Positions 21,776 to 40,247 of a DNA stretch of 57,021 nt are shown piece by piece (position 1 is the stretch's first letter; every line of letters begins with the position of its first letter). A program made the translations under genes and the position numbers. This DNA comes from Nostoc sp. 106C (GTDB lineage: Bacteria > Cyanobacteriota > Cyanobacteriia > Cyanobacteriales > Nostocaceae). The notes under the pieces were generated by a model. It ran no database searches, was not told the origin of the DNA, and worked only from the letters and a program-made list of their open reading frames with translations. The stretch lies in the NCBI RefSeq assembly GCF_002154725.1, contig NZ_MTAW01000206.1, positions 1-57,021 of the forward strand. Reading direction: 5' to 3'.

Positions 21776-22615
21776 ATGCTTATCTTCGTTCTTCAAACCT
21801 TAGCAGAAATTCTAGCTGGAGGAACCTCACTCACCAGTACAGAGCAAATTGACTTTAGTCATCCTAGTAATCGTCGCGAAGAGGGTGCAGGGCCAACTCT
21901 CAATTTGTATGTTTATGACATTCGTGAGAGTAAGCAGTTTCAACAATCCGGTAGGCAAGTTGAACGTAAACCGTCACGGGGTCTGCAACCGACATCTGTG
22001 AGTTGGTCACCTAATTGGTTTGATGTCTCAATGCTAATAACAGCCTGGGATCGAACAGCTTTAGGTGAACATCACCTTCTCAGCGAAGCATTAACTGTAC
22101 TGCTGCGCCATCGGTCTTTGCAAGAAGACTATTTGGTTCCGGAGTTGCGAGGTTATGGCAATTTATCTTTAACAGTTGCCTTAGATCCGGCGATTGAGAT
22201 TGGTTCATTATGGAGCGCGCTAAATGTACCTTTGCGTTCCGCTTTGTATGTGACTGCAATGATACCCGTTGAGCCGCAATCTACTCTCGTACCTTTAGTT
22301 TGGGAACGAATTTTCAATTTGCAAAATCAATTGAGTGAGAATGGCAACAGCACAGTTGTCACCAGGCGGGTAGCGATCGCAGGTATGGTCAAAAGTGCAG
22401 TCACCAATCTGCCACTGCTGTCGGCAGAAGTAACTGTGCAAAGAACTAAAAAATCAGCGGTAAGCAATAAAGAAGGACTGTTCTTTTTTGAAGACATTCG
22501 TATAGGTAATTATGTTTTGACAGTTAATTGTCCTGGCTATTTACCCCAGAATGTCAATGTCTTGGTGGATAGCCAAAGTTATAGCTTCAAAGAAATCTTA
22601 CTAACTCCTGAATAA
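21776..22615 (+). CDS. DUF4255 tail terminator/cap protein fused to a carboxypeptidase-regulatory-like domain
   Basis: 279 residues. The N-terminal 190 residues match DUF4255 (Pvc16-like), the tail-terminator of extracellular contractile injection systems: GPTLNLYVYDIRES, VSWSPNWFDVSMLITAW and an AEILAGGTSL start region. The C-terminal 85 residues (VAIAGMVKSAVTNLPLLSAEV ... GLFFFEDIRIGNYVLTV) form a carboxypeptidase-regulatory-like beta-sandwich, an appended domain seen in some cyanobacterial members. It is the first gene of the tail cluster, 30 bp before the sheath gene. A long, repeat-filled region precedes it and must contain the promoter. Confidence 0.87.
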   Translation: MLIFVLQTLAEILAGGTSLTSTEQIDFSHPSNRREEGAGPTLNLYVYDIRESKQFQQSGRQVERKPSRGLQPTSVSWSPNWFDVSMLITAWDRTALGEHHLLSEALTVLLRHRSLQEDYLVPELRGYGNLSLTVALDPAIEIGSLWSALNVPLRSALYVTAMIPVEPQSTLVPLVWERIFNLQNQLSENGNSTVVTRRVAIAGMVKSAVTNLPLLSAEVTVQRTKKSAVSNKEGLFFFEDIRIGNYVLTVNCPGYLPQNVNVLVDSQSYSFKEILLTPE

Positions 22616-22645: not shown

Positions 22646-24307
22646 ATGGCTAGACTTGATTACTTTGCACCTGGTGTCTATGTCGAAGAAATTGACCGAG
22701 GTAGCCGACCGATAGAAGGTGTCAGCACTGCGGTTGGTGGTTTTGTCGGCTTTACAGAAGATATTCGCGATGGGGCTGAACTATTAAAGCCCATGCTGGT
22801 GACCAATTGGACGCAATATCTCAACTACTTTGCCCGTCCCAACTCCGACGGTTTCACCGATTTCAACGCCTATTTACCCTTTGCCGTCTATGGCTACTTT
22901 ATGAATGGTGGCGGTCGCTGCTGGGTAACCAGTATTGGTACGCAGTTACCAGGCGCACCCAAGCCCCCAAGCCAAGAACCTGCCACTCTCCGAATTAGCG
23001 GTCGTGGTAATCGTCCAACGCTGCGCTTTAGTTTGCGCCCAGAACAAGCAGCAGGCGGAGCCATCGATATTTTGATCACTGATAGTGGCCCTCGTGCCCT
23101 ACCTGAAGGAACTGAAGGAGAAGCACCTCCCAATACAGGCGAATACTTTACAGTGCAAATTCGTCGGGGAGATGAAGTTCTAGAGCAATATGAGAACTTA
23201 ACCATGAACCGCGAAGTTCCGGCTCAGGTAGCAACTTACGCGTTAACAGCTTTGAGAAATTCTATGTATATTAACGTAGAAGATATTTCTCAAACTGGAC
23301 AGCCTTTATCTCGTCGTCCGACCAATGGTCAATATGAACTAGCGCCGCCAATTGTTGCCCAGACAGTTGATAGATTTTCACGGGATTTTGAAGGGGTACG
23401 TGATGACCGAACAGGGGTAAGAGGGATTTTTGAAATTGATGAAATCACCATGCTAGCTTGTCCCGATTTAATGCGGGCTTATCAAGCGCAAGTGATGAAC
23501 TTGGATCAAATCCACGGCATCATGGAACTGATGATTAGCATGTGTGAGGGTTCTGCTAGTGGTGATATTCCCAACCCACCCAACCGCATGGTTTTAATCG
23601 ACCCACCACCAGAACAGACTAAACCCCAACAGGTAGTGGAGTGGTTGAACAGATTTAACCGCCGTTCTATGTTTGCGGCCCTCTATTATCCCTGGATCAA
23701 AGTTCCTAATCCCCGCGATCGCGGTAATCCCATTCTCATACCTCCTTGCGGTCACGTCATGGGTGTTTGGGCACGCACCGACGAAACCAGAGGCGTTTAT
23801 AAAGCACCAGCCAACGAAGTCCCCAGAGGTGTAATTGGTTTGGGTTATGAAACTAATTTCCGCGAACAAGAACTTTTGAACCCCTTGGGAATTAACTGCA
23901 TTCGCAGCTTCCCCAATCGCGGTATCCGCATATGGGGCGCAAGAACTCTCGTTGAGCCAGATAAAACTGAGTGGCGTTATATCAGTGTGCGGCGGTTAAT
24001 TAGTTATATAGAAAAATCAATTGAACTAGGTACGCAGTGGGTCGTTTTTGAACCCAACGATGAAGATTTGTGGGCTAGGGTAAAACGCACTGTCAGTAAC
24101 TTTTTAGAGCGAATTTGGCGTGAAGGAGCTTTATTTGGTGCTTCACCAGAACAAGCATTTTATGTCAAGTGCGATGAGGAATTAAACCCACCAGAAACGA
24201 GAATTTTGGGGCGTTTATATATCGAAGTTGGTGTTTGTCCAGTCAGACCAGCCGAGTTTGTCATCTTCCGAATTAGCCAATGGAATGGCATCGAAGACGA
24301 AGAATAA
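22646..24307 (+). CDS. contractile tail sheath protein
   Basis: 553 residues. The start ARLDYFAPGVYVEEIDRGSR followed by IEGVSTAVGGFVGFTE is diagnostic of phage-tail/CIS sheath proteins, and the C-terminal region VVFEPNDEDLWARVKRTVSNFL is the conserved sheath core. In the extended state, sheath subunits polymerise around the inner tube; contraction drives the tube out. Only one sheath gene is present. It is preceded at a usable distance by GGAGAG and followed by the tube genes, the order typical of contractile injection systems. Confidence 0.95.
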   Translation: MARLDYFAPGVYVEEIDRGSRPIEGVSTAVGGFVGFTEDIRDGAELLKPMLVTNWTQYLNYFARPNSDGFTDFNAYLPFAVYGYFMNGGGRCWVTSIGTQLPGAPKPPSQEPATLRISGRGNRPTLRFSLRPEQAAGGAIDILITDSGPRALPEGTEGEAPPNTGEYFTVQIRRGDEVLEQYENLTMNREVPAQVATYALTALRNSMYINVEDISQTGQPLSRRPTNGQYELAPPIVAQTVDRFSRDFEGVRDDRTGVRGIFEIDEITMLACPDLMRAYQAQVMNLDQIHGIMELMISMCEGSASGDIPNPPNRMVLIDPPPEQTKPQQVVEWLNRFNRRSMFAALYYPWIKVPNPRDRGNPILIPPCGHVMGVWARTDETRGVYKAPANEVPRGVIGLGYETNFREQELLNPLGINCIRSFPNRGIRIWGARTLVEPDKTEWRYISVRRLISYIEKSIELGTQWVVFEPNDEDLWARVKRTVSNFLERIWREGALFGASPEQAFYVKCDEELNPPETRILGRLYIEVGVCPVRPAEFVIFRISQWNGIEDEE

Positions 24308-24361: not shown

Positions 24362-24823
24362 ATGCCGGGTCAACCTGAGTTATTATCTGCTTGTCTGTTT
24401 TATTTTGAAGCCGACGGAATTACAGAGAAGTCTATTAAAGAAATCAGCGGTTTAGGTGTAGAAAATACCCCTGCTCAAGAAGTACACGGATCTACTAAAG
24501 GCGGTAAAATTTGGCGGCAAGCAACTCCTACCGTTACCAAGTTCACGAATATCACACTTAAGGTAATTGCCACTGCTGATGTAGACCTTTACCAATGGTA
24601 CAAAAAGTGTAACGAGGATATGGGAAAACCTCGCCAGTGGGATCAAAATCGTAAATCAGCTTCGGTAGTTGCTTACAATCAACAACTCAAAGAAGTAGCT
24701 CGTTGGAATATTATTAATTGCTACCCTGTTAAATATACAGGCCCAACATTAACAGCTTCTAGTGGTGATATGGCAAACGAAACAGTCGAATTAGTTCATG
24801 AGGGTGTTGAACGCGTTAACTAA
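24362..24823 (+). CDS. tail tube protein 1 (T4 gp19-like)
   Basis: 153 residues, the right size for a CIS inner-tube subunit. It begins MPGQPELLSACLFYFEADGI and contains SIKEISGLGVENTPAQEV, a pattern of conserved-region tube proteins (gp19 family), and VELVHEGVERVN at the end. Tube subunits stack as hexamers inside the sheath. AGGAG lies before the start codon. The second, diverged tube gene follows after 20 bp, as in eCIS clusters where two tube paralogues occur. Confidence 0.9.
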   Translation: MPGQPELLSACLFYFEADGITEKSIKEISGLGVENTPAQEVHGSTKGGKIWRQATPTVTKFTNITLKVIATADVDLYQWYKKCNEDMGKPRQWDQNRKSASVVAYNQQLKEVARWNIINCYPVKYTGPTLTASSGDMANETVELVHEGVERVN

Positions 24824-24843: not shown

Positions 24844-25338
24844 ATGGTTCAACCAACTGAAAAGCTACCAGAAATTTTAGCAGCCCATCGTTTTTATTTA
24901 GGGCTGACACTAGACGGTCAAAAAGATAATAGCGATTGCTACTTTTTAGAGTGTCAAGGTTTTAAAAGAACACAAGATGCAATTGAAATCTGTGAAGTTA
25001 CTCCTAATAAGTGGGGTGCGGCGGTTAAAGGTCAGGTGGTTAGAACCAAGCTTCCAGGAAATGTTAAAAGTGGCAACATAACTTTACGTAGAGGTACGAT
25101 CGCTAACTCTATGGTTTTTTGGAAATGGTTTGAAGAAGTTCAAAATGGTAAATGGGCGAAGCAACGAAAACTCATGGCTTTGTCTATTTACAGTCAAGCA
25201 AATCAAGAAGAAGCTAGATTTGAATTAGCAGGTGCTTGGCCTGCTAGTTATAAAATGGCTGATTTCAACGCCCGTAGTACCGACTTACATATAGAAGAAC
25301 TGGAGATTGCTTTCGAGGAATTTAAACGCGTGAAGTAA
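24844..25338 (+). CDS. tail tube protein 2 (T4 gp19-like)
   Basis: 164 residues, distinct from the previous gene but the same family: FYLGLTLDGQKDNSDCYFLECQGF near the start, then KLPGNVKSGNITLRRG (the hallmark tube motif) and ADFNARSTDLHIEELEIAFEEF at the end. In eCIS, a second tube paralogue often forms the first ring on the baseplate. This is by family analogy; no baseplate gene is present here. It stands in operon order with the tube and chaperone-like genes. Confidence 0.9.
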   Translation: MVQPTEKLPEILAAHRFYLGLTLDGQKDNSDCYFLECQGFKRTQDAIEICEVTPNKWGAAVKGQVVRTKLPGNVKSGNITLRRGTIANSMVFWKWFEEVQNGKWAKQRKLMALSIYSQANQEEARFELAGAWPASYKMADFNARSTDLHIEELEIAFEEFKRVK

Positions 25339-25349
25339 TCAGGAGGATT

Positions 25350-25694
25350 ATGTTTCCGACAGAGTTTGAATTTACACTGCCAAAGGGGTATCTAGACTCG
25401 GAAGGCAACCTCCACCGCAAGGGTGTAATGCGGCTATCAACAGCAATAGACGAAATTGCACCTTTGCGTGACCCACGAGTTAAAGCTAATGAAGCTTATG
25501 CCACGATTATTATTTTGTCACGCGTAATTACTCGCTTGGGTGCTCTATCGGAAGTAACTCCTGCGATCGTGGAAAACTTTTTCTCCCAAGATTTAAATTA
25601 TCTCCAAGATTTTTACCGTCAAATCAACGGCTTGGAGAGTACAATTTCTCAATTAGAAGATACAGTCAACGTCTTGCAAAATTCAGCTTCTTAA
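25350..25694 (+). CDS. tail-assembly-chaperone-like protein A
   Basis: 114 residues beginning MFPTEFEFTLPKGYLDSEGN. The pattern (beta-hairpin with LHRKGVMRLSTAIDEI, then YATIIILSRVITRLGAL and a helix with a D-x-x-x-L-Q-D-F core) resembles the Mu gp41/P2 gpE family of tail-assembly chaperones. It is a close paralogue of the next gene but lacks its C-terminal zinc-knuckle; instead it ends in a coiled-coil-like tail (LESTISQLEDTVNVL). An AGGAGG Shine-Dalgarno lies 6 nt upstream of its ATG. The family assignment is by pattern only. Confidence 0.75.
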   Translation: MFPTEFEFTLPKGYLDSEGNLHRKGVMRLSTAIDEIAPLRDPRVKANEAYATIIILSRVITRLGALSEVTPAIVENFFSQDLNYLQDFYRQINGLESTISQLEDTVNVLQNSAS

Positions 25695-25785: not shown

Positions 25786-26169
25786 ATGGGTCGCAAGCAA
25801 GATACTCTCAGCACTGAATTTGCCTTCATTCTTCCCCGAGGGTTGATTGATAGCCAAAACCGAGTCCATCGTCATGGCGTGATGCGTTTAGCTACCGCCA
25901 AAGATGAAATTTTGGTACAACAAGAACGCAAAGTTCAGGAAAACCCTGCTTATGGTGTCTTGGTAATGCTGGCACGGGTTATTACCCGCTTAGGTAGTTT
26001 AAATTCTGTTAGCCCCGATTTATTAGAAGGACTGCTCCTTCATGATATTGCCTATCTCAGAGAATTTTATAATCGTATTAATCAGCAAGGAAATGTACAA
26101 ATACCCACACAATGTCCCCATTGCAATACTCAATATTCAGTGGAGTTAAAACTAGCGGGGGAGTCGTAA
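25786..26169 (+). CDS. tail-assembly-chaperone-like protein B with zinc knuckle
   Basis: 127 residues, paralogous to the 114-residue protein before it: TEFAFILPRGLIDSQNRVHR, GVMRLATAKDEIL, then VLVMLARVITRLGSL and HDIAYLREFYNRIN. It differs by a C-terminal CPHCNTQY, half of a zinc-ribbon, and ends LKLAGES. Its last codons contain a GGGGG run (26157-26161), where a -1 slip would enter the downstream DUF6760-like frame. This is the arrangement of tail-assembly-chaperone pairs (lambda G/GT, P2 E/E') placed between tube and tape measure. Confidence 0.8.
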   Translation: MGRKQDTLSTEFAFILPRGLIDSQNRVHRHGVMRLATAKDEILVQQERKVQENPAYGVLVMLARVITRLGSLNSVSPDLLEGLLLHDIAYLREFYNRINQQGNVQIPTQCPHCNTQYSVELKLAGES

Positions 26170-26315
26170 GCTACCCCTCTAACAAGCTATATGAGGAGGT
26201 AGCTTTTATTGCTTACCATTTCCACTGGTCACAAAATGATATTTTAAATTTAGAGCATAAAACCCGTCAGCGCTGGGTTACAGAAATTAATAAAATTAAC
26301 GAAAAATTATTATGA
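26112..26315 (+). CDS. DUF6760-like small tail protein, possibly made by -1 frameshift
   Basis: The frame is 67 codons, but the conserved part starts only near GGVVSYPSNKLYEEVAFIAY and continues FHWSQNDILNLEHKTRQRW. The first 17 codons are the overlapping coding sequence of the previous gene in another register and do not look like protein. No ATG or GTG lies near the conserved start. It may therefore be expressed by a -1 slip at the G-run in the upstream gene, giving a product of about 176 residues. Its stop overlaps the FHA gene start (ATGA), which indicates translational coupling. Confidence 0.7.
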   Translation: MSPLQYSIFSGVKTSGGVVSYPSNKLYEEVAFIAYHFHWSQNDILNLEHKTRQRWVTEINKINEKLL

Positions 26316-28600
26316 AAATAAAAGTTAACTACTCACCAACCCTAAATGAAGTTAACGAACTTGATTTAGCATTAGCAACTACACCAAAAGGAGAGTGTAT
26401 TATTGGTCGTGCTCCGGAATCCGATTTAGTGTTGGACAGTCCTGATGTTAGTAGGGTACACGGCAAATTCTTTCTTCAAAATGGGAATTATTACTTCTGC
26501 GATCTTGGTAGTAGAAATGGCTCAATAATTAATGGCAAACTGGCTGAAAAAAATAAATCAGTTTTGTTGAAAGATAAAGACGTTATCCGTATTGGTGATT
26601 ACGTTATGACAGTGGAAGACATGGTTCCTTTGTCTGAACAATTGCCAGAGACAGTATTTAGAACTATAGATCCGGCACTGTTTTCCGGGTGGCGAGGAAA
26701 TGAAAATTTAAACAATATTAATGTTGTCAATCACCCCTTAGAAGTAATTAGCGAAGTACCACAACAGGTTAATTCAGTATCTAATAATGAACTTATTCAA
26801 CCTCAAAGTGAAGTACAAATCTCAGAACTAGAAGAGGCAATAAACGCACTCGACAACATTATCGAAACTCCTGAGGAAGTCAGTGAAGTTCCCGCAGATC
26901 TTGATGATGCAGATGTGAATGTAGGTAGATCGGTTCCAGAAGAACCTACCTTCATACAACCCCAGGATTTAATTAGCCATGTACCGGAGGCGGTGAATGA
27001 AGTGCCCGCAGATCTCGATGATGCAGGTGTGAATCTGGGTACACCAGTTGCACAAGAAGCCACCTTCATACAACCCCAGGATTTAATTAGCCATGTACCG
27101 GAGGCGGTGAATGAAGTGCCCGCAGATCTCGATGATGCAGGTGTGAATCTGGGTACACCAGTTGCAGAAGAAGCCACCTTTATACAACCCCAGGATTTAA
27201 TTAGTCCTGAGACGGAAGGGGTAAGTGAAGTTCCAGTAGATATCAACGATCAGGATATTGATTGGGATGCAGAAATTCCGCAAGAATTCACCATTGTACA
27301 ACCACGTACTATAGTTATCCAACCATCTCAGGCGGTGAGTGAGGTTCGCGCAGATATCAACGATCAAGATATTGATTGGGATGCAGAAATTCTCCAAGAA
27401 TTTACTAATGTGCAACCACGTGATATTCTCAGCCAACAACCAGAGGCACTGAGCGAAGTTCCCGCAGATGTCGTGGAAATTCTCCAAGAATTCACCAATG
27501 TGCAACCACGCGATATTGCGAGCCAACCACCAGAGGCGGGCACTGAAATAAGTGAAGTTACCACTAATGAAGATGTTGTAGATGAGTTTAGAGTAGATGT
27601 TGCAGCAGTAGAAGCTCCAGAATTTGTCAATAGCTTTACTCCAGAGTTTAGCCATGAAGATATTACACTCACAGAAGATATAGTTATTGAGGCAGATGAT
27701 GGAGTTAAGGAACCATCAGAAATAGTGCATGAAGTGCCGGAAGCTGTTAGTAATCAAGTTGCTGACATTAGTACTGATGATGCAGCAATAGTTGAATCAG
27801 TTTCAGAGACTGTTATTGAACTGTCGCCAGTTGAAACACCTGTAGAACTCAGCGAAGTTAGCGAATTAGAGGTATTAAATAACCAAAACGTTAATCTGAG
27901 TGCGACAGATACCAAAGAAGCGATCGCAGAAGCTAGGAATTTAGAAACTCCAGAAGCTTTTGGCTTTGTACCTTCAACATTTAATGAAATATCAGACTCA
28001 ACTAATATTGACTTTTTGGAGAAAACAGAAGAACTAAATGTTATATCTACCCCAGCGAATGAAGAACTAGAAGATGAAACTATGCCCGAATTAACTAGTT
28101 CAACATCTGAGTCAATTAGTCAAACTCTTGAAGAAATTTTTGGAGCAGAAAAAGCACAATCTGATGAAATTGCTAAAGAAATACCCGTCAGTAAGCCTCA
28201 ACAAATGATCGCTCAAAAAAACATAGTTCTTATCGCTCACGAAAGCAAAAAATTAGAACTTGCTGATTTTGTGAATCAGCATCAAGAATTTTTCTCACAG
28301 AGTCTTACTGTTGCTTGGCCATCCATTAGTGAAGTCTTACATCAACAAGCAGGTATAGCTATCAGTCAACAAATCCCAGCAGCCACATCTGGAGGTTATC
28401 AAACAATTAATTCATTAGTGAACTCAGGAAACATTTTAGCAGTAATTTTCCTCAGAGATTTTCTTATACCTCAGCCTGGTCAAGCAAATGAAGAAGCACT
28501 GTTGAGAAGCTGCAATATTAACCAAGTTCTACTTGCAACTAATCTACCAACAGCAGAGGCGATCGTGCATTATATTAAACATTTATTGGAGCATCAATAA
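26312..28600 (+). CDS. FHA domain protein with 38-residue repeats and degenerate methylglyoxal-synthase-like domain
   Basis: 762 residues in three parts. Residues 1-110 are an FHA phosphothreonine-binding domain (IIGRAPESDLVLD, SRVHGKF, LGSRNGSIINGK). Residues about 150-420 hold acidic repeats with a 38-residue period. Residues 637-762 resemble MgsA: NIVLIAHESKK aligns with the IALVAHDH strand, and LLATNLPTAEAIV with the VATNVATADFII helix. Of the E. coli catalytic residues, His19 has a counterpart, Asp101 is retained (RDFL), but Asp71 of GGDQQ is replaced (GGYQT, Tyr696). It is probably a non-catalytic ligand-binding module. It is the last gene of the tail cluster and coupled to it by a 4-bp overlap; a regulatory or assembly role is inferred. 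Confidence 0.8.
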   Translation: MKIKVNYSPTLNEVNELDLALATTPKGECIIGRAPESDLVLDSPDVSRVHGKFFLQNGNYYFCDLGSRNGSIINGKLAEKNKSVLLKDKDVIRIGDYVMTVEDMVPLSEQLPETVFRTIDPALFSGWRGNENLNNINVVNHPLEVISEVPQQVNSVSNNELIQPQSEVQISELEEAINALDNIIETPEEVSEVPADLDDADVNVGRSVPEEPTFIQPQDLISHVPEAVNEVPADLDDAGVNLGTPVAQEATFIQPQDLISHVPEAVNEVPADLDDAGVNLGTPVAEEATFIQPQDLISPETEGVSEVPVDINDQDIDWDAEIPQEFTIVQPRTIVIQPSQAVSEVRADINDQDIDWDAEILQEFTNVQPRDILSQQPEALSEVPADVVEILQEFTNVQPRDIASQPPEAGTEISEVTTNEDVVDEFRVDVAAVEAPEFVNSFTPEFSHEDITLTEDIVIEADDGVKEPSEIVHEVPEAVSNQVADISTDDAAIVESVSETVIELSPVETPVELSEVSELEVLNNQNVNLSATDTKEAIAEARNLETPEAFGFVPSTFNEISDSTNIDFLEKTEELNVISTPANEELEDETMPELTSSTSESISQTLEEIFGAEKAQSDEIAKEIPVSKPQQMIAQKNIVLIAHESKKLELADFVNQHQEFFSQSLTVAWPSISEVLHQQAGIAISQQIPAATSGGYQTINSLVNSGNILAVIFLRDFLIPQPGQANEEALLRSCNINQVLLATNLPTAEAIVHYIKHLLEHQ
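26876..27530 (+). repeat. 114-bp (38-codon) tandem repeats in the FHA gene
   Basis: Starts of the repeated ttcatacaacc-like core fall at 26951, 27065 and 27179, and equivalent positions at 27290 and 27404, each 114 bp from the previous one. The next step is only 90 bp, a 24-bp deletion. The units at 26951 and 27065 are almost identical, indicating recent duplication or gene conversion. Confidence 0.9.
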
Positions 28601-28737: not shown

Positions 28738-29202
28738 TTACCATTGGGAAAAAGGATGCTTGACTAAATTGCTGTTGAAATATTTGGGGTTGTCTGAAAC
28801 TTCCTCGCCAATCCAGATTGGCAGTTCAATTTTTTGTTGTTCGTGACTAAGTTCAACTTCTGCTAATATCAGCCCTTTATTGACACCATCAAACTCATCT
28901 ATTTCCCAAATCAAATTACCGTACTCTATCCTATATCGAATTTTTTCTATTAAAGGGCGATCGCACAAAGTATCGAGCATTTCCTGAGCATCTGCAAGCG
29001 GAATCGGATACTCAAATTCTGACCTGCTATATTTGACGCTAATTCCTTTAATTGTTAAGTAACCTTGGTTTCCTACTATACGGACACGTACAGTAGCTTG
29101 TTTTGCCGTAGAAATATATCCCTGAACAAACAGGGTACCCTCAGCTAGCTTTCTCCAGCTATCTCCGTTGACTAAAAATTTTCGCTCTATTTCTTTCGCC
29201 AT
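28738..29202 (-). CDS. CYTH-domain triphosphate tunnel metalloenzyme
   Basis: 154 residues. The N-terminal EIERKFLV gives the ExExK metal/triphosphate motif of CYTH proteins, followed by VRVRIVGNQGYLTIKG and the acidic EIDEFDG and AEVELSHEQQ strands that line the tunnel. Members hydrolyse inorganic triphosphate or polyphosphate or synthesise cAMP; small bacterial ones are mostly tripolyphosphatases. It is divergent from ppk1 and separated from it by a likely Pho box, which fits a role in polyphosphate metabolism. The enzyme activity itself is not provable from sequence. Confidence 0.9.
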   Translation of the reverse strand: MAKEIERKFLVNGDSWRKLAEGTLFVQGYISTAKQATVRVRIVGNQGYLTIKGISVKYSRSEFEYPIPLADAQEMLDTLCDRPLIEKIRYRIEYGNLIWEIDEFDGVNKGLILAEVELSHEQQKIELPIWIGEEVSDNPKYFNSNLVKHPFSQW

Positions 29203-29242
29203 TGTACTTTATATTGACTATAATTTGTATTTAAATTTATCA

Positions 29243-29283
29243 CTTAACCTAAATTAAACCTTAATTTAATTATAATTAAACCA
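29243..29283 (+). promoter_or_regulatory. Pho box (SphR/PhoB-type) between CYTH gene and ppk1
   Basis: Four direct repeats with an 11-bp period: cttaacct (29243), ttaaacct (29254), tttaatta (29265), ttaaacca (29276). This matches the cyanobacterial Pho box of PyTTAAPyPyT-type octamers with 3-bp spacers. The orientation points toward ppk1, 135 bp downstream; the CYTH gene starts 41 bp away on the other side. Confidence 0.6.
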
Positions 29284-29417
29284 ATATGGTAGTAAAAAAT
29301 TAGCTTTGTTTATTCGCAATACAAAAATCAAAGATAGCTGATTTAAAAGAACTAGCCCATGTTATCTTAAGGGAAAAATAATTCTGATTAAATCATTTTA
29401 ATTTGCTAAAAAGAACT

Positions 29418-31589
29418 ATGGGTAAAGCGAAAAAGGCTAGCAAAGATATTAATCTGAATGCTCCTCAGCATTATTTTAATCGCGAACTAAGCTGGTTAGA
29501 ATTTAATCGGCGAGTGTTACATGAGGCACTAGACCGCCGCACTCCATTACTAGAAAGATTGAAATTTACTGCTATCTTCAGTTCTAACCTAGATGAATTT
29601 TTCATGGTTCGTGTTGCACTTCTTAAAGAACAAGTTCAAGCACAACTTAGCCAGCAAAGTATCGATGGACTAACCCCACAACAACAATTAGAAGCAATCT
29701 ATCAATGCCTACATCCAATGGTGATTGAACAGCATCGTTACTTTGAGGAGGTGCTTCGTCCAGAAATGGCATCGTATGGTATTCATCTTCTTAATTACAT
29801 TGATATTAATCCAGAACAACGTAGTTACTTACAACAACTATTTCAAAAAAAGATTTTTCCAGTTCTTACACCTCTAGCAGTAGATCCCAGTCATCCTTTC
29901 CCCTTGATGGCGAATCTTAGCCTCAATTTAGCAGTGGTAGTCAAAGCTCCAAATACAGGAGAAGAAAAGTTTGCTAGAGTTAAAGTTCCAAATATTCTAC
30001 CTCGGTTTATTTCCTTACCTCAGGAATTACAAATACAGAATGGAAAGTTAAATTACTGGACAAGTATTCCCATAGAGCAGGTTATTGCTCACAACTTAGA
30101 AGCTTTATTTCCAGGGATGATTATTAAAGAATATCATCTGTTTCGCTTAACTCGTGATGCCGATTTAGAAGTAGCAGAAGAAGAAGCTGATGACTTATTA
30201 TTAGCAATTCAACAGGAATTACGTAAGCGTCACTTTGGTGGCTCTGTAGTGCGATTAGAAATACAACCATCAATGCCTCATTCAGTACGACAGATGCTGA
30301 CAGCAGAAATGGAATTGGCTGAGAGTGATATTTATGAGATAGACGGCTTACTAAATTTGAACGATTTGATGTCGTTGATGAAATTGCCTTTGCCCGATTT
30401 AAAAGATCCAACTTGGAAACCAGTTACTCCACCTCGGCTGCGCCATTTCCATCAAGCTAGGAAAATTACCAACATAGATGGCCACGAAAGCAGCATTTTT
30501 TCGGTGATTCAACACAAGGATTTGCTAGTGCATCATCCCTATGAATCGTTTAGTTGCTCTGTAGAGACATTTATCGCGCAAGCTGCCCGCGATCCTAATG
30601 TATTAGCAATTAAGATGACGCTTTATCGCACTTCCGGAGATTCTGATATCATCAGTTCTTTGATTACTGCTGCTGAAAGTGGTAAACAAGTAGCTGTTAT
30701 TGTAGAACTCAAAGCTCGATTTGATGAAGAAAATAATATTACTTGGGCTACTAAGTTAGAAAAATCTGGTGTTCATGTAATTTATGGATTGGTAGGACTA
30801 AAAACTCACACTAAGATTGTACTGGTAGTGCGTCAGGAGGGAGAAGATATACGTCGATATGTGCATATTGGTACTGGAAATTATAATGCTAAAACAGCGA
30901 ATTTATATACTGATGTCGGGCTAATAAGTTGTCGAGAAGATTTAGGAGCAGATTTAACCGATTTATTTAATTATTTGACAGGCTATTCCTGCCAAGAATC
31001 TTACCGCAAATTGCTAGTATCTCCCGTTAATATGCGCGATCGCATTATTGCCTTAATTCACAGAGAAATCGAACAGTGTAAAAACGGCAACAGAGGTCAT
31101 ATTATCGCCAAAATGAATTCTTTGGTTGATGCTCAGATTATTGCTACTTTATACGAAGCTTCGCAAGCTGGGGTAAAAATTGACTTGATTATCCGAGGTA
31201 TTTGTTGTTTGCGTCCTGGAATTCCCGAAGTCAGTGAAAATATTCGCGTTATTAGTATTATCGGTCGTTTTTTAGAACATTCACGGATATTTTACTTCTG
31301 TAATAATGAACAAAATGAAGTATACATTGGTAGTGCTGATTGGATGCCTCGTAACTTAGATCGCCGCGTGGAAGCAGTTACACCAGTTGAAGATATTGAT
31401 ATTGTACAAAACTTACAAAATATCTTAGCAATCATGCTGGCAGATAATCGCCAAGCGTGGGAACTCCAGTCTGATGGTTTTTATATTCAACGTCGTCCTG
31501 AGCAGGATGAGCCAGAACGTAGTGCCCAAAATATTCTGATGGAAAAGACGCAACAATTATCAAATAATAAATTGTTTGTCACATTATGA
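29418..31589 (+). CDS. ppk1: polyphosphate kinase 1
   Basis: About 723 residues, full length for PPK1, which reversibly polymerises the gamma-phosphate of ATP into polyphosphate. The N-terminal domain begins YFNRELSWLEFNRRVLHEA and SSNLDEFFMVRVA. The phospholipase-D-like catalytic domains carry the two conserved histidines in LKTHTKIVLVV and EHSRIFYFCNN, and VHIGTGNYNAKTA lies between. The start was moved from TTG 29403 to ATG 29418, which is a standard codon and keeps all conserved sequence. Four Pho-box-like octamers lie upstream and predict phosphate-starvation control. The CYTH gene is divergent; corA converges 4 bp away. Confidence 0.95.
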   Translation: MGKAKKASKDINLNAPQHYFNRELSWLEFNRRVLHEALDRRTPLLERLKFTAIFSSNLDEFFMVRVALLKEQVQAQLSQQSIDGLTPQQQLEAIYQCLHPMVIEQHRYFEEVLRPEMASYGIHLLNYIDINPEQRSYLQQLFQKKIFPVLTPLAVDPSHPFPLMANLSLNLAVVVKAPNTGEEKFARVKVPNILPRFISLPQELQIQNGKLNYWTSIPIEQVIAHNLEALFPGMIIKEYHLFRLTRDADLEVAEEEADDLLLAIQQELRKRHFGGSVVRLEIQPSMPHSVRQMLTAEMELAESDIYEIDGLLNLNDLMSLMKLPLPDLKDPTWKPVTPPRLRHFHQARKITNIDGHESSIFSVIQHKDLLVHHPYESFSCSVETFIAQAARDPNVLAIKMTLYRTSGDSDIISSLITAAESGKQVAVIVELKARFDEENNITWATKLEKSGVHVIYGLVGLKTHTKIVLVVRQEGEDIRRYVHIGTGNYNAKTANLYTDVGLISCREDLGADLTDLFNYLTGYSCQESYRKLLVSPVNMRDRIIALIHREIEQCKNGNRGHIIAKMNSLVDAQIIATLYEASQAGVKIDLIIRGICCLRPGIPEVSENIRVISIIGRFLEHSRIFYFCNNEQNEVYIGSADWMPRNLDRRVEAVTPVEDIDIVQNLQNILAIMLADNRQAWELQSDGFYIQRRPEQDEPERSAQNILMEKTQQLSNNKLFVTL

Positions 31590-35692: not shown

Positions 35693-38065
35693 TCAACGGT
35701 TATTCGTTCCGGGTAAAAATACAGGCGGAACTGGGCTAGCTTGTGGAACTGGAGTAATTACAGTTGGTGTGGGAGTAGGTACAACTTTTTTGATAACTGC
35801 GATCGCAAATCCTCTTTGCTGCGGTTGCTGCTTACCAGATTTGTCAATTACTTGCAATGCAATTTGCGGTGGAAATTCTGAAATCACCGGCAGTTGTAGC
35901 GAACCTACTGGTTTAAGATCGTTGCCGTATGGTAGCAGCTTTATCTGAATATCTTCTCCCTCTACCCTCCAAGTTAAAGTAGCGGTTTCTCCTTCTTTGA
36001 GTGACTGATTTGGTTGCTCGTTACCATTAATTGTGAAAGAAACAATCTTAATTGGTTTGGGTAAAACTTCTATTTTGCCTTCGGTCTTTTTAGCACTAAT
36101 TTTATCGCTACCATTATTTGATAAAGCTTTTAATTCAAAGGCATATTTTCCAGCTTTCAATGGTGGTATGGGTATATTTGTACATTGCAGTTGGCGATTT
36201 ACTTCTTTACAGGAATTCTTTAGTTTAGAGTTGCCGATAATACCTTGATTGAATTTATAAATTATGGGATTGCTTGTTGATGTTCCTTCCTCTGTACTGC
36301 CAGTAAGCTGAGTTTCTGCCAGCAGTAAGGGATTGGTAATTGTCCAATTGACGAGAATATTTTCTCCTGTTTTGTACTGTGGTTTATTGACTTTAAAATC
36401 AACAATTTCTGCTATTGGTTTCTCTGTGATGACTACTTGGGTTGTTTGGGTATCTGTTTTAGCGGGTTCCGAAAATAATGCATTACCTTGGCGATACAAG
36501 CCTTGTAACTCAAAAGTGTAATTACCTTTGCTGTTAATCCCAGTTTTAATATTGTTACAAATCAAATCTATTTGTTTTTGGACGATACAAGGTGATATTT
36601 CATTAGCATTTTGCTTACCTAGCGACTCAGGAATACCATTCCGAAAATCGTAGGTAATTGGCTTAATGGGTTGTGGCCCTTTAACGATTAGAATTAAATT
36701 TTCTAACTGTTTATAGTTATGAATGTCCCATCTCAAAGCTACCTCATCTTCGCCTTCAGTAAGTTGAGGGCTATTGGCGCTAAAATTTTCTATTTTCAAC
36801 TGCGGGGGATTTAAAATTTTCCAGATAATAAATCCTATCCCACCCAAGAAACCTAAAATCAGTAATATTAATAATATAAACTGCCATAAGGGGCGGGGTT
36901 TCCAAAGTAAAGTTCCCTGCGGTAATGAGTCAGGTAGAAGGAAATTTTGTTTATCATAGATGTTGACTTGAAAGTTGATAATTTGCCCTGCACCAAACCA
37001 AGGTTTTCGCCACCAAGGCCGAGGTTTTAATGTCAGATTAGTTTCAGAAGTTTTGCTGGGCAATAATCTTAACTCAGCCGGATCAAATTTGTAGGTAAAG
37101 AGTCTTTCTTCATCACGACTTTCAACACCAAATATCAGTTCTCGGACAATGTTACCCTGGTTAACCAAGGATAATTCATACTTGCCAGGACTACGGCTAA
37201 CTTGCCCCAGAATGGTATTTAGTTGTACATCTAAGTCATAACTTATAGGAATTTGGATATACACCAAATCCAGCAATACTAAATCGGGAAATTTTTCCGA
37301 ATATAAACGCAGGGTGGGTGAATAGTTCCCCGCTAAAGTATCGGCTGGCGGATGAAATTTTAACAATATTTTACCGGAATCACCAGGGTTGAGCGCTAGG
37401 GCATTAATATCAGACAATAACCCCGGCCCTTCTACTCCCGTTGTAGGATAACTGATTGTAAACCAATCATCGTCTAAATCGAGGCAAGTTAGGCGGAATC
37501 GGTCTACATACTGAGAACGATTTTCTACTGTTACCTCTAATAGCAAAGGTTCATGAAGTTTGCAAATTAGCGGCTTATTAGTATTACTGCTGGGTTTAAT
37601 GGAAAAAGTTGAATCATTTGCGCGAATTACGGTGTGTTCTTTGGGTACAATTTTCAGCTGGCGTGGGAAGTTAATCGGAGTGTCTTGAGGATAATGTTGA
37701 GGCGCGTCTACAACTAAGGTATAGTCGTAAGTTCCAGGATTAGCATCAATGGGAATTTCAAATGTAAATGTTATTTCGTCACTACTTTGTTGAGTTGCGA
37801 TCGCGCAACTTTCTCTAGGAACGCTAGATAATCCAGTGATATTTTTAAATTGTTCATCAAAATTTAAATATAAATCAATAATCGCATTCTGTTCTCCTAT
37901 GTTGGTGACAACAGCATGGAGTGCGATCGTATCTCCTGGCATAGCATCTTGAATACCAGGTGGACTAATAAATACTTCCAGGGGACTAGGTTTAGCTTGC
38001 ATGTTACCAACTCCCTTATTTAATAGGATGTGAATGTAGTTGTACCTGAAAATCTTCGCTACCAC
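35693..38065 (-). CDS. large one-TM protein with Ig-like ectodomains
   Basis: 790 residues. The N-terminal ~390 are beta-rich Ig-like repeats (for example PGDTIALHAVVTNIGEQNAII and LHEPLLLEVTVENRSQY), as in COG1470-type proteins. A single membrane helix (FILLILLILGFLGGIGFIIW) follows near residue 400, then further Ig-like repeats (PQYKTGENILVNWTITNP, LKEGETATLTWRVEG) and a Pro-rich end. The gene overlaps its upstream partner by 50 bp, so the products are probably made together. The function is unknown; a membrane scaffold or receptor is a guess. Start may be the internal ATG at MQAKPSPLEVF, about position 38003, since the upstream stretch lies inside the partner gene. Confidence 0.75.
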   Translation of the reverse strand: MVAKIFRYNYIHILLNKGVGNMQAKPSPLEVFISPPGIQDAMPGDTIALHAVVTNIGEQNAIIDLYLNFDEQFKNITGLSSVPRESCAIATQQSSDEITFTFEIPIDANPGTYDYTLVVDAPQHYPQDTPINFPRQLKIVPKEHTVIRANDSTFSIKPSSNTNKPLICKLHEPLLLEVTVENRSQYVDRFRLTCLDLDDDWFTISYPTTGVEGPGLLSDINALALNPGDSGKILLKFHPPADTLAGNYSPTLRLYSEKFPDLVLLDLVYIQIPISYDLDVQLNTILGQVSRSPGKYELSLVNQGNIVRELIFGVESRDEERLFTYKFDPAELRLLPSKTSETNLTLKPRPWWRKPWFGAGQIINFQVNIYDKQNFLLPDSLPQGTLLWKPRPLWQFILLILLILGFLGGIGFIIWKILNPPQLKIENFSANSPQLTEGEDEVALRWDIHNYKQLENLILIVKGPQPIKPITYDFRNGIPESLGKQNANEISPCIVQKQIDLICNNIKTGINSKGNYTFELQGLYRQGNALFSEPAKTDTQTTQVVITEKPIAEIVDFKVNKPQYKTGENILVNWTITNPLLLAETQLTGSTEEGTSTSNPIIYKFNQGIIGNSKLKNSCKEVNRQLQCTNIPIPPLKAGKYAFELKALSNNGSDKISAKKTEGKIEVLPKPIKIVSFTINGNEQPNQSLKEGETATLTWRVEGEDIQIKLLPYGNDLKPVGSLQLPVISEFPPQIALQVIDKSGKQQPQQRGFAIAVIKKVVPTPTPTVITPVPQASPVPPVFLPGTNNR

Positions 38066-40247
38066 TCACGATCGCATTTGTTTGATTAATTGTTTTCAGA
38101 TCAATAGTGTTGATTCTCTTGGTACTTTGATAAATTATTTCACCTGTGGCTGCTTTAAGTTTATCAAGCTTGTGTTCGGGGGTTAAATACCACATCATTA
38201 TTCGTCCATCATCGCCAGCACTTACTAACAGGCGACCATCTTCATTAAATACCAAACTCCGCACTGAAGTTTTCGCTGCTGACCAGCGGTCTAAGATTGG
38301 ACAATTTAATTCAGCGATTGGATTTTGGGGATTTGGAATTTGACATTGATTTAAATTCCAAATTGTAATGTATCCCGCCGAGTCAGAAGTTGCGAGGATT
38401 TTTTCTGAAGAGTTAGGCACAAAAGCTAATCCCCAAACATAGTCTTCGCGTCCTGTTCTTGGATCTAGCTTTTCGAGTTTTTGTACTGCTAAAGTTTTAA
38501 TTTGATTTTTTGTTTGAGGTAGATGCCATTGCCACAATAAGAAACGTTTAAAGTTGCCTGCCATCACTAGAGTTTGATCATCTGGACTCAGAGTTAAAGC
38601 CCGAATTTGGAAACCTGATAACTTCTGTTGAGTTTGCAGGTCAATTGCTTTTGGTTCTGGCTGGAAATCATCGTTGGTCGATGTTCTCGACCATAGTCTT
38701 ACCTTACCACTACCATAACCGCTGAATAAATCCAAAGAATTTTTAGTAAATACTAAGTCAAATACTCTGTCACCTTTAGCTTTGGGATCTTTTTGGTCTT
38801 GCAGTTCGTTTCTTTTTCTACCTGTGGGGACATCCCTAAGTTCAATTACACCATTATCTAAACCAACCGCAACGCGATCGTTTTCTACAGGCATAAAACG
38901 CGCGACTTCTACAGCATCATCGGTAATTGCCAACAAACCTTTGGGTTTGTGCTGTCTACCACACGCAACAGGCTGACCATCATAGGTAATGCTTGCAGGT
39001 TCTAAGTGCTTGTTATTAATATTCCAAAGTCTCAATGTGCAATCATCTGAACCACTGACAACAGACAAACCAATGCCACTAAAACCGATTGAGTTCACAG
39101 AACGAGTATGCATAATTGGCTCTGGTCTTAACAAGAATGCTAGCAATGCAAGTATGAATGCCAGAATAACCAACTGTAACCATAAAGGTAAAATCGGTAA
39201 AACTTTTAATTCTAAATTTTGGGTAGCGGGGTCTGTACTACCTAAACGTTGATCTGATAATTCCGATTTAGCTTCTAAAAGTAAAGTTTTGCCTATTCCT
39301 AACCAAGGACGTTTTATTTTGATATCTAAAATTAGTTTGCTAGTTTCTCCTAAATTAAGATTGGCCGTTGTTGGTAACGTCTTGTAAGTACATTTGCGCC
39401 AATCGCGTCCCTGAAGCTGTACATTAATTTCTTGAAACAGATTGCTAGCATTTCTAAATAGCAATTCAAAAAAAGCTGTATCAGATTTCCAGTTAGGTAA
39501 CCAACTAAGTTTTTGCGGAATTCTTTGGGACTTTTGGGTAGTAGTAAACTCGATAAAACCTACAGGTAAAACTTCCAGATTACCTTCAGTGCTAGCCGGA
39601 TAACCATTATTGCTGATGGCTTCAATAGTAAAAGGGTAAATGTCACTAGGCGCTTGGATTACAGATAAAGGTTGGCATTGAAATATGACTTCTATTTGAC
39701 CGCCTGGATCTAGGGAAAAGCGCCGTTCTGCACTGCTGACAAGCCAAGAAAAATCCACACCTATAAACCGCAGCGTTACATTCACAATTTGCTGACCCAA
39801 ATTGCGGACTCGTACTGGTATATCTACAGTGTTACGCGGATATACTTGGAACTCTCGTACAGGCAATTCCACACTCAAAAGTGCTGGTTGATTATCTGCC
39901 TCGATTTTTAACCGCAGTAAAAGTCTACGTTCTTGTCCTAACTGCGGAGAGAAAATTTTCACAGTCAAGTTGACTGTACCCACAAATCCAGGAATGGGTG
40001 TATTAAAAACGAAGGCCTGAAAAGTGGTAGTACTACCGGGAGGCTTGGCCGCTGCTACTTCTGGTTCCAGCTTATACCAGCGATATTCAGGATTGCGATT
40101 TTCTCCCGCAGCGGTAATTTCTATTTGAAAATTGGCAAATCGATCGCTGTCATTATTGACAGTCACCTCAAATAAAACTGGAGTTCCACCAGGACGGAAG
40201 GTTAAATTTTGAGTAGAAAGACTGGCATTTATAACATTATTTTGCAT
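38016..40247 (-). CDS. one-TM protein with Ig-like N-terminus and C-terminal WD40 repeats
   Basis: 743 residues. The first ~345 form Ig-like beta-sandwich repeats (GTPVLFEVTVNNDSDRFANF; YPRNTVDIPVRVRNLGQQ). A single helix (LWLQLVILAFILALLAFLL) follows, then WD40 propeller blades (SVVSGSDDCTLRLWNINN; DSAGYITIWNLNQC; SAGDDGRIMMWYL; NAIVSGSEDFQVQLH). It is the first gene of a two-gene unit with the 790-residue protein, which shares the same N-terminal/TM plan without the propeller. A scaffold linking a membrane to a cytosolic or luminal complex is a reasonable but unproven role. Confidence 0.8.
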   Translation of the reverse strand: MQNNVINASLSTQNLTFRPGGTPVLFEVTVNNDSDRFANFQIEITAAGENRNPEYRWYKLEPEVAAAKPPGSTTTFQAFVFNTPIPGFVGTVNLTVKIFSPQLGQERRLLLRLKIEADNQPALLSVELPVREFQVYPRNTVDIPVRVRNLGQQIVNVTLRFIGVDFSWLVSSAERRFSLDPGGQIEVIFQCQPLSVIQAPSDIYPFTIEAISNNGYPASTEGNLEVLPVGFIEFTTTQKSQRIPQKLSWLPNWKSDTAFFELLFRNASNLFQEINVQLQGRDWRKCTYKTLPTTANLNLGETSKLILDIKIKRPWLGIGKTLLLEAKSELSDQRLGSTDPATQNLELKVLPILPLWLQLVILAFILALLAFLLRPEPIMHTRSVNSIGFSGIGLSVVSGSDDCTLRLWNINNKHLEPASITYDGQPVACGRQHKPKGLLAITDDAVEVARFMPVENDRVAVGLDNGVIELRDVPTGRKRNELQDQKDPKAKGDRVFDLVFTKNSLDLFSGYGSGKVRLWSRTSTNDDFQPEPKAIDLQTQQKLSGFQIRALTLSPDDQTLVMAGNFKRFLLWQWHLPQTKNQIKTLAVQKLEKLDPRTGREDYVWGLAFVPNSSEKILATSDSAGYITIWNLNQCQIPNPQNPIAELNCPILDRWSAAKTSVRSLVFNEDGRLLVSAGDDGRIMMWYLTPEHKLDKLKAATGEIIYQSTKRINTIDLKTINQTNAIVSGSEDFQVQLHSHPIK

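Follow-up and report, generated by a model that had tools for sequence, protein, structure and literature searches.

What does a protein that joins a forkhead-associated (FHA) domain to a methylglyoxal synthase (MgsA)-like domain do at the end of a set of contractile tail genes? The question is raised by Nostoc sp. 106C, from which we analysed the full 57,021-nt stretch of contig NZ_MTAW01000206.1 (the window). The gene for this 762-residue protein, called FHA-MGS in the following, closes a series of genes for tail sheath, inner tube and tail assembly chaperone-like proteins. FHA-MGS is a real, conserved and clade-specific protein that is tied to one cyanobacterial contractile injection system (CIS).

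Architecture of FHA-MGS and its tail gene neighbours

FHA-MGS and its parts were delimited by the open reading frame (ORF) together with Pfam, NCBIfam, solved-MgsA and repeat searches. All positions refer to the window.

26312..28600, plus strand: FHA-MGS, 762 aa; FHA domain, acidic repeat linker and putative MgsA-like pseudoenzyme
26399..26596, plus strand: FHA domain, residues 30-95 (Pfam PF00498, E 8.4e-18, above its cut-off)
26651..26653, plus strand: codon of Thr114 within PETVFRTIDP, directly after the FHA domain (Thr in 44/44 rows)
26884..27469, plus strand: 114-bp tandem repeats (38-residue units) inside the acidic linker (Tandem Repeats Finder)
28217..28597, plus strand: MgsA-like domain (TIGR00160, solved MgsA sequences and alignment)

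The first-pass annotation of the window had described an N-terminal FHA domain and 38-residue repeats, and both were borne out: the FHA domain carries the canonical Gly-Arg, Ser, His and Asn residues, and Tandem Repeats Finder recovered the 114-bp units, with 2.8 copies at 93% matches and 4.2 copies at 81% matches. The linker is acidic (23% acidic vs 3% basic residues) and varies between 243 and 592 residues across the 44 rows of the family; 33 of the 44 FHA-MGS genes contain a tandem array with a period of at least 30. This architecture is not a product of chance, since 44 Nostocales loci encode the MGS domain and an alignment of 25 rows has 24 fully conserved columns out of 131. The scan of species genomes behind these numbers yielded 47 loci, the other three being a fusion of MGS to a diacylglycerol (DAG) kinase (L047) and two Firmicutes loci (L048, L049). 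Of the 44 Nostocales loci, 43 encode the FHA domain in frame with MGS, and the remaining one (L003) lies at a contig end and starts partway through the gene.

Within a phylum sample of 291 genomes, 37 matched; five of them did so at an E-value of at most 6.6e-70, and all five, the genome of the window included, belong to the family of the window. In this family (taken to be Nostocaceae), 93 of 210 genomes matched. Two of these were dropped as DAG kinase (DAGK)-like, and the 91 of the strong class are referred to as FHA-type, an assignment made by the gap in E-values (at most 2.6e-48 vs at least 2.8e-25) and not by checking the FHA domain in each genome. The FHA-type rows form one group in a tree (support 100/99), for which the tool warns of long branches meeting. 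PADLOC gave no match for the FHA-MGS protein. Behind FHA-MGS, the window holds a CYTH-domain gene and a polyphosphate kinase gene (28738-31589), which among L003-L046, with their flanks of different length, are shown by L003 only.

The genes that precede FHA-MGS in the window are the following.

21776..22615, plus strand: Pvc16/cap-like protein, PF14065 with an extra carboxypeptidase-regulatory-like C-terminal domain (Pfam E 1.4e-21 and 1.1e-10)
22646..24307, plus strand: tail sheath (PF17482 E 1e-18, PF04984 E 5.9e-15, phrog_23 tail sheath E 8.9e-63)
24362..24823, plus strand: inner tube protein 1, T4 gp19-like (PF06841 E 2.2e-34)
24844..25338, plus strand: inner tube protein 2, T4 gp19-like (PF06841 E 6.3e-28)
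25350..25694, plus strand: tail assembly chaperone-like protein 1 (phrog_508 E 3.4e-5; resembles chaperone-like protein 2)
25786..26169, plus strand: tail assembly chaperone-like protein 2 (phrog_508 E 4.6e-6)
26112..26315, plus strand: DUF6760 protein, listed ORF with the true start probably further in (PF20546 E 4.8e-16, residues 22-66)

Coordinates and sequence show that the DUF6760 stop overlaps the FHA-MGS ATG by 4 bases in the window. When DUF6760 ends were compared with FHA-MGS starts by eye, the same overlap was present in 33 of the 40 loci showing DUF6760 (among L003-L046) and absent in L038-L044. A programmed frameshift joining chaperone 2 to DUF6760 was also considered and dropped, as a simple frame overlap suffices.

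The sheath gene is found in the same locus as FHA-MGS in 33 of the 44 loci. Another five are cut by a contig edge (L003, L007, L010, L018, L040), and the three of these whose genomes were searched (L003, L010, L018) carry the sheath on another contig at 88-100%; the remaining six (L029, L031, L032, L034, L037, L046) have no sheath at the locus. Across the family, a sheath of at least 77% identity, a cut chosen because no value fell between 71% and 77%, occurs in 79 of 210 genomes, and FHA-MGS is present in all 79, which are related genomes and not 79 independent events. Only a more distant sheath (62-71%) was found in 36 of the 210 genomes; 34 of them are without FHA-MGS, and two have it elsewhere in the genome. 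Co-occurrence with sheath genes, which the first-pass annotation had named as a check, is thus seen throughout the genomes with this sheath type.

Phages keep the tape measure gene after the tail assembly chaperones. The order of tube, chaperones, DUF6760 and then a long repeat protein puts FHA-MGS in that very place, and the protein might accordingly have a structural role in the tail, for instance as a length ruler. We consider this very improbable: the linker varies too much in length, FHA-MGS survives without tails, and loci of the more distant sheath type lack it in that place. The first two points led us to reject the role. None of 12 loci with the more distant sheath (L112-L123) was found to carry FHA-MGS. 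What comes after DUF6760 is a baseplate-half gene resembling a tube initiator in L112 and L117-L119 and other genes in L114-L116 and L123; L113 gave no chaperone match. A protein of 689-832 aa follows the first chaperone in the three others (L120:6058-8541, L121:6412-8478, L122:5917-8412), in place of chaperone 2, DUF6760 and FHA-MGS; phmmer likened it to the kinase-like query, but a kinase identity was not confirmed, with Pfam returning a PBP-like domain in two of the three proteins and nothing in the third, and this assignment was rejected.

The baseplate half of the system lies apart from the sheath half in the genome of the window, on contig C173 (L070:8552-19998), where a tube-like gene and genes for CIS tube, spike, PAAR, gp25, baseplate J and tail protein I were found. 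The Calothrix genomes G002-G004 encode it on the strand opposite to the sheath, at a distance of about 18 kb, and in Calothrix brevissima NIES-22 (G001) it is far from the sheath. Two further sheath loci are present in the genome of the window, on contigs C145 (L131, L132) and C224. The C145 locus combines a 640-aa frame for a more distant sheath with baseplate J-like genes and may be of the thylakoid-anchored type, the cyanobacterial CIS described for Anabaena PCC 7120 (PMC8894136, available part).

The MgsA-like domain and its replaced residues

The MgsA-like C-terminus proposed by the first-pass annotation is supported at the sequence level. The domain alone matches NCBIfam TIGR00160 with E 1.2e-22 (profile positions 3-121 of 143) as well as 11 distinct solved MgsA sequences (E 1.6e-18 to 4.2e-7). 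Its scores are below the curated NCBIfam cut-offs, with 80.4 vs 146.9 bits for TIGR00160 and 74.4 vs 84 bits for a second model. Even at E-values of up to 10, Pfam assigned the domain to no family, and the allosteric MGS-like model of the carbamoyl phosphate synthetase (CPSase) type, PF02142, gave no match.

In MgsA, Asp71, His98 and Asp101 are catalytic, and the other positions listed here are catalytic or phosphate-contacting. Residues were numbered by alignment to E. coli MgsA (b0963, K-12 record), and 29 FHA-type rows, near-copies among them, were compared. His19 corresponds to His643 of the window protein, Asp71 to Tyr696, Asp91 to Asp716, His98 to Gly723 and Asp101 to Asn726. The positions of His19, Asp91 and Arg107 are unchanged in all 29 rows and that of Lys23 in 28, and the ATN..TA motif of MgsA is retained. 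In contrast, the Asp71 position is occupied by Tyr (27/29) or Phe (2/29), the His98 position by Gly (25/29) or Asn (4/29), the Asp101 position by Asn (29/29) and the Thr48 position by Ile, Val or Phe (29/29). Position 99 is Gln in 29/29 rows and, outside these rows, His in L111. Four genus-mates outside the 29 (L106-L109) keep Tyr71 and Asn101, have lost one Gly of the GG pair and carry Ser at position 98.

This alignment agrees with the earlier assignment of the His in AHES to His19 and of the Tyr in GGYQT to the Asp71 position. The Asp in RDFL, which had been equated with Asp101, aligns with Asp91 of E. coli MgsA instead; and Asp71, although replaced as claimed, is not the sole loss, with His98 and Asp101 replaced as well. 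Homologous to MgsA over most of the domain, FHA-MGS thus differs from it by lacking Asp71, His98, Asp101 and the phosphate loop and by being fused to an FHA domain and a linker. Where the sequences align with the phosphate loop (45-48, 65-67), the MgsA residues are lost and the columns vary (mean entropy 1.04, compared with 0.74 for columns outside the active-site set). Taken together, the active-site columns are not more conserved than the remaining ones (p 0.26). When the 29 FHA-type rows are set against 26 other rows from cyanobacteria, five columns are near-fixed yet different, and the Asp71 and Asp101 columns are two of these. By its sequence, the domain looks like a fixed pseudoenzyme homologous to methylglyoxal synthase.

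That the domain is still an active methylglyoxal synthase, its catalytic residues having moved elsewhere, might be suspected from the clear MgsA homology and from the lack of any other TIGR00160 match in the genome of the window at E 0.001. With the three catalytic positions replaced in every row and the phosphate loop gone, we regard this as barely conceivable. The domain could also have become a metabolite-gated sensor, its rebuilt MgsA pocket binding a small molecule (perhaps triose phosphate or another anion) and switching the FHA part. The retained His19, Asp91, Arg107 and Lys23 together with the new Gln99, Asn101 and Tyr71 would fit such a pocket, as would the fact that elsewhere in the phylum MGS is fused to a domain that binds cyclic nucleotides. 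Nevertheless, a sensor appears unlikely in view of the degraded phosphate loop, the unexceptional conservation of the active-site columns, the His at position 99 in L111 and the missing match to the Pfam MGS-like model. The CPSase-style metabolite reading by the MGS domain that was put forward in the first-pass annotation is so far unsupported, owing to the phosphate loop and the PF02142 result.

Two further MGS fusions occur in the phylum, one with a YegS-type DAG kinase (L080, L083, L095, L104, L047) and one with a cyclic-nucleotide-binding domain (L088, L100). These proteins likewise carry MGS fused to another domain, but they mostly keep Asp71 and form groups separate from the FHA-type in the tree. 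Asp71 is kept in 18 of 20 DAG-kinase-type rows, a class defined as DAGK-like by ORF length for 19 rows (four were submitted to Pfam and confirmed) and by phmmer against solved structures for L047, and in 6 of 6 cyclic-nucleotide-binding-type rows, with Pfam domains confirmed for the two submitted. Most of these fusion rows keep the MgsA catalytic residues, whereas L047 and L095 are without them.

Thr114, the FHA domain and a CHASE2 kinase encoded nearby in relatives

Canonical FHA residues bind phosphothreonine. Those of FHA-MGS (Gly32, Arg33, Ser47, Arg48, His50 and Asn69) are unchanged in 44/44 rows, and so is Thr114 just past the FHA domain, which is flanked by Glu113 (41/44), Val115 (40/44), Phe116 (32/44) and Arg117 (41/44). 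The ETVFR stretch resembles the OdhI/GarA substrate peptide ...VETTSVFRADFL, which is centred on a phosphorylatable ETTS motif (PMC8546545, available part), and PETVFRTIDP also resembles the Agrobacterium TssL site DLPpTVVE (PMC5995506, available part); both are resemblances and not tests. GarA/OdhI and FHA-MGS have in common an FHA domain and a Thr in an ET..VFR stretch, with the phospho-switch being only a resemblance in our case. There, the stretch precedes the FHA domain, whereas here it follows it, and the long linker and the MGS domain are added.

A candidate for the kinase was found next to FHA-MGS in Calothrix PCC 7716, where the following gene encodes a CHASE2-Ser/Thr kinase (PF05226 E 5.5e-67, PF00069 E 4.1e-40) and is itself followed by genes for a WD40 and an Ig-like protein. 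Close orthologues of this kinase occur in 50 of the 210 family genomes, as defined by an E-value of at most 2.9e-268, a cut that was set after viewing the list and by which 25 of 75 genomes were dropped as weaker matches; 48 of the 50 also hold FHA-MGS. In 35 genomes, the two genes share a strand and the kinase match begins 30-326 bp past that of the MGS domain. In the genome of the window, the orthologue (63% identity; next best 46%) lies on the 10.8-kb contig C131, on which no tail gene of this system was found. PADLOC likened the CHASE2 kinase domain to many kinase models, as expected of any such kinase. No PP2C phosphatase was among the 10 ORFs given to Pfam in this context, and no systematic phosphatase search was made. 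Upstream, 23 of the 44 loci L003-L046 have a divergently oriented histidine kinase gene, often together with a LuxR-type regulator, and several of the other loci are cut short; this arrangement is in line with the GerE regulators beside extracellular CIS (eCIS) loci (PMC8213781, available part).

Homologues of the two genes behind the Calothrix kinase are encoded in the window as well, and both proteins may be linked to the injection system.

35693..38065, minus strand: Ig-like protein, homologue of the third gene downstream of FHA-MGS in Calothrix PCC 7716 (phmmer 774.4 bits to L068:14788-17151)
38016..40247, minus strand: WD40 protein, homologue of the second gene downstream of FHA-MGS in Calothrix PCC 7716 (phmmer 961.7 bits to L068:12537-14780)

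Based on the gene position, the DUF6760 overlap, the co-occurrence with the sheath in 79/79 genomes, the kinase adjacency and the upstream histidine kinase, together with the unchanged Thr114 and FHA residues, the ETVFR resemblance, the near-fixed replacement of Asp71 and the fixed one of Asp101, we tentatively propose, with somewhat less than even confidence, that FHA-MGS may act as a phosphothreonine-gated adaptor of the CIS under a CHASE2 kinase. The phosphate would come from the kinase, whose gene closely follows FHA-MGS in many relatives. The FHA domain would read the resulting phosphothreonine, which could be Thr114, either in cis or on an adjacent chain, or lie in a partner from the tail or the baseplate. 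A flexible tether would be provided by the long acidic linker, and the dead MgsA-like domain would form a multimerising or docking head that makes no methylglyoxal. In this way, a membrane-sensed signal would be conveyed to tail assembly or readiness, as is the case in the type VI threonine phosphorylation pathway. For this adaptor, we infer phosphorylation, linker disorder, multimerisation, the partner and the direction of control.

The type VI pathway (PpkA, PppA and Fha1/Fha; PMC5995506, available part) also combines an FHA protein with a contractile machine and a Ser/Thr kinase, which here is encoded alongside in many relatives but not in the window. It differs in that FHA-MGS scores below the TIGR03354 cut-off of the type VI TagH/Fha proteins (48.3 vs 120.25 bits), that the machine has Pvc16-type parts and that the kinase is of the CHASE2 type. 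The main text of the Anabaena study, as available, contains neither 'forkhead' nor 'methylglyoxal' (PMC8894136), and the available parts of CIS papers, including PMC8213781, yielded no mention of FHA or forkhead. No paper on FHA together with methylglyoxal synthase was found in the open-licence literature, which does not show its absence from print, and none there on MGS with DAG kinase in cyanobacteria or on DUF6760. The same literature, as far as available, returned a type VI review for FHA with contractile injection and kinase, and a study of engineered PVC in liver for forkhead-associated with eCIS.

FHA-MGS in genomes without the tail

Several observations weigh against an adaptor dedicated to this CIS. 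The close sheath is missing from 12 of the 91 FHA-type genomes, and in 10 of those 12 the matching baseplate J protein is absent at E 1e-50. When five tail-less genomes were checked for any sheath, G295-G298 yielded only the sheath of another system, at 38-43% identity and with an additional weaker match of 29% in one of the four, and the genome of L046 (G299) gave no sheath match at E 0.001. In the eight tail-less copies tested, the median ratio of nonsynonymous to synonymous substitution rates (dN/dS) of the FHA and MGS domains is about 0.12-0.22. The medians amount to 0.217 (FHA) and 0.190 (MGS) for L031, L032, L034 and L037 (6 pairs each), compared to 0.177 and 0.142 for tail-linked Nostoc-type copies (36 pairs each); the tail-less genus-mates L106-L109 have an FHA median of 0.117 (6 pairs), five MGS pairs at 0.15-0.20 and one at 0.8 with almost no divergence. 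This purifying selection suggests that FHA-MGS works without this tail in some lineages, or that the losses are recent. As to the kinase, an orthologue at E 2.9e-268 is missing from 43 of the 91 FHA-MGS genomes, two genomes have the kinase without FHA-MGS, and no kinase gene adjoins FHA-MGS in the window. Finally, no part of the linker is better conserved than the one holding Thr114, so that the constancy of this residue may have another cause, and the Glu before it is lost in four tail-less genus-mates.

Two loci (L110:8960-11057, L029:7314-8369) show decayed tail sets in which the sheath is gone, a Pvc16 remnant lies near the chaperones, and DUF6760 and FHA-MGS are open.

The attachment to the tail module that was claimed in the first-pass annotation therefore stands insofar as FHA-MGS ends the tail genes and co-occurs with the sheath, but is weakened as a sole role by the 12 genomes without that sheath. 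Its suggestion of a kinase signal gains weight from the 35 genomes with the CHASE2 kinase just downstream, but not from the window, where none is adjacent.

Much of this would also be expected if FHA-MGS served the CHASE2 kinase pathway as a general signalling scaffold, or another injection system as a partner, and merely lay beside co-regulated tail genes. Its maintenance under purifying selection in genomes without this sheath or baseplate J, the sheath of another system in G295-G298 and the lack of any in G299 point in this direction, as do three tail-less genus-mates (G315, G316, G320) that have the kinase orthologue 26-33 kb off on the same contig. Such a scaffold would, however, hardly account for the presence of FHA-MGS in every genome with this sheath type, its absence from 34 of the 36 with the distant sheath only and the 4-base overlap with DUF6760. 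We rate it as somewhat unlikely. Both inputs might also be combined in a kinase-gated checkpoint, where the dead MgsA head would read the triose-phosphate or carbon state, the Thr114-FHA switch would read the CHASE2 kinase, and the tail would be built if both agree, with the module being used without tails as well; this we regard as distinctly unlikely.

In FHA-MGS, an enzyme domain has lost its catalytic residues clade-wide and the remainder is under purifying selection, which suggests a use in signalling or scaffolding. To our knowledge, the triggers of Pvc/Afp-type and of cyanobacterial injection systems are largely an open question. With a conserved protein and a candidate kinase, the control of one such injection system has gained a direct handle.

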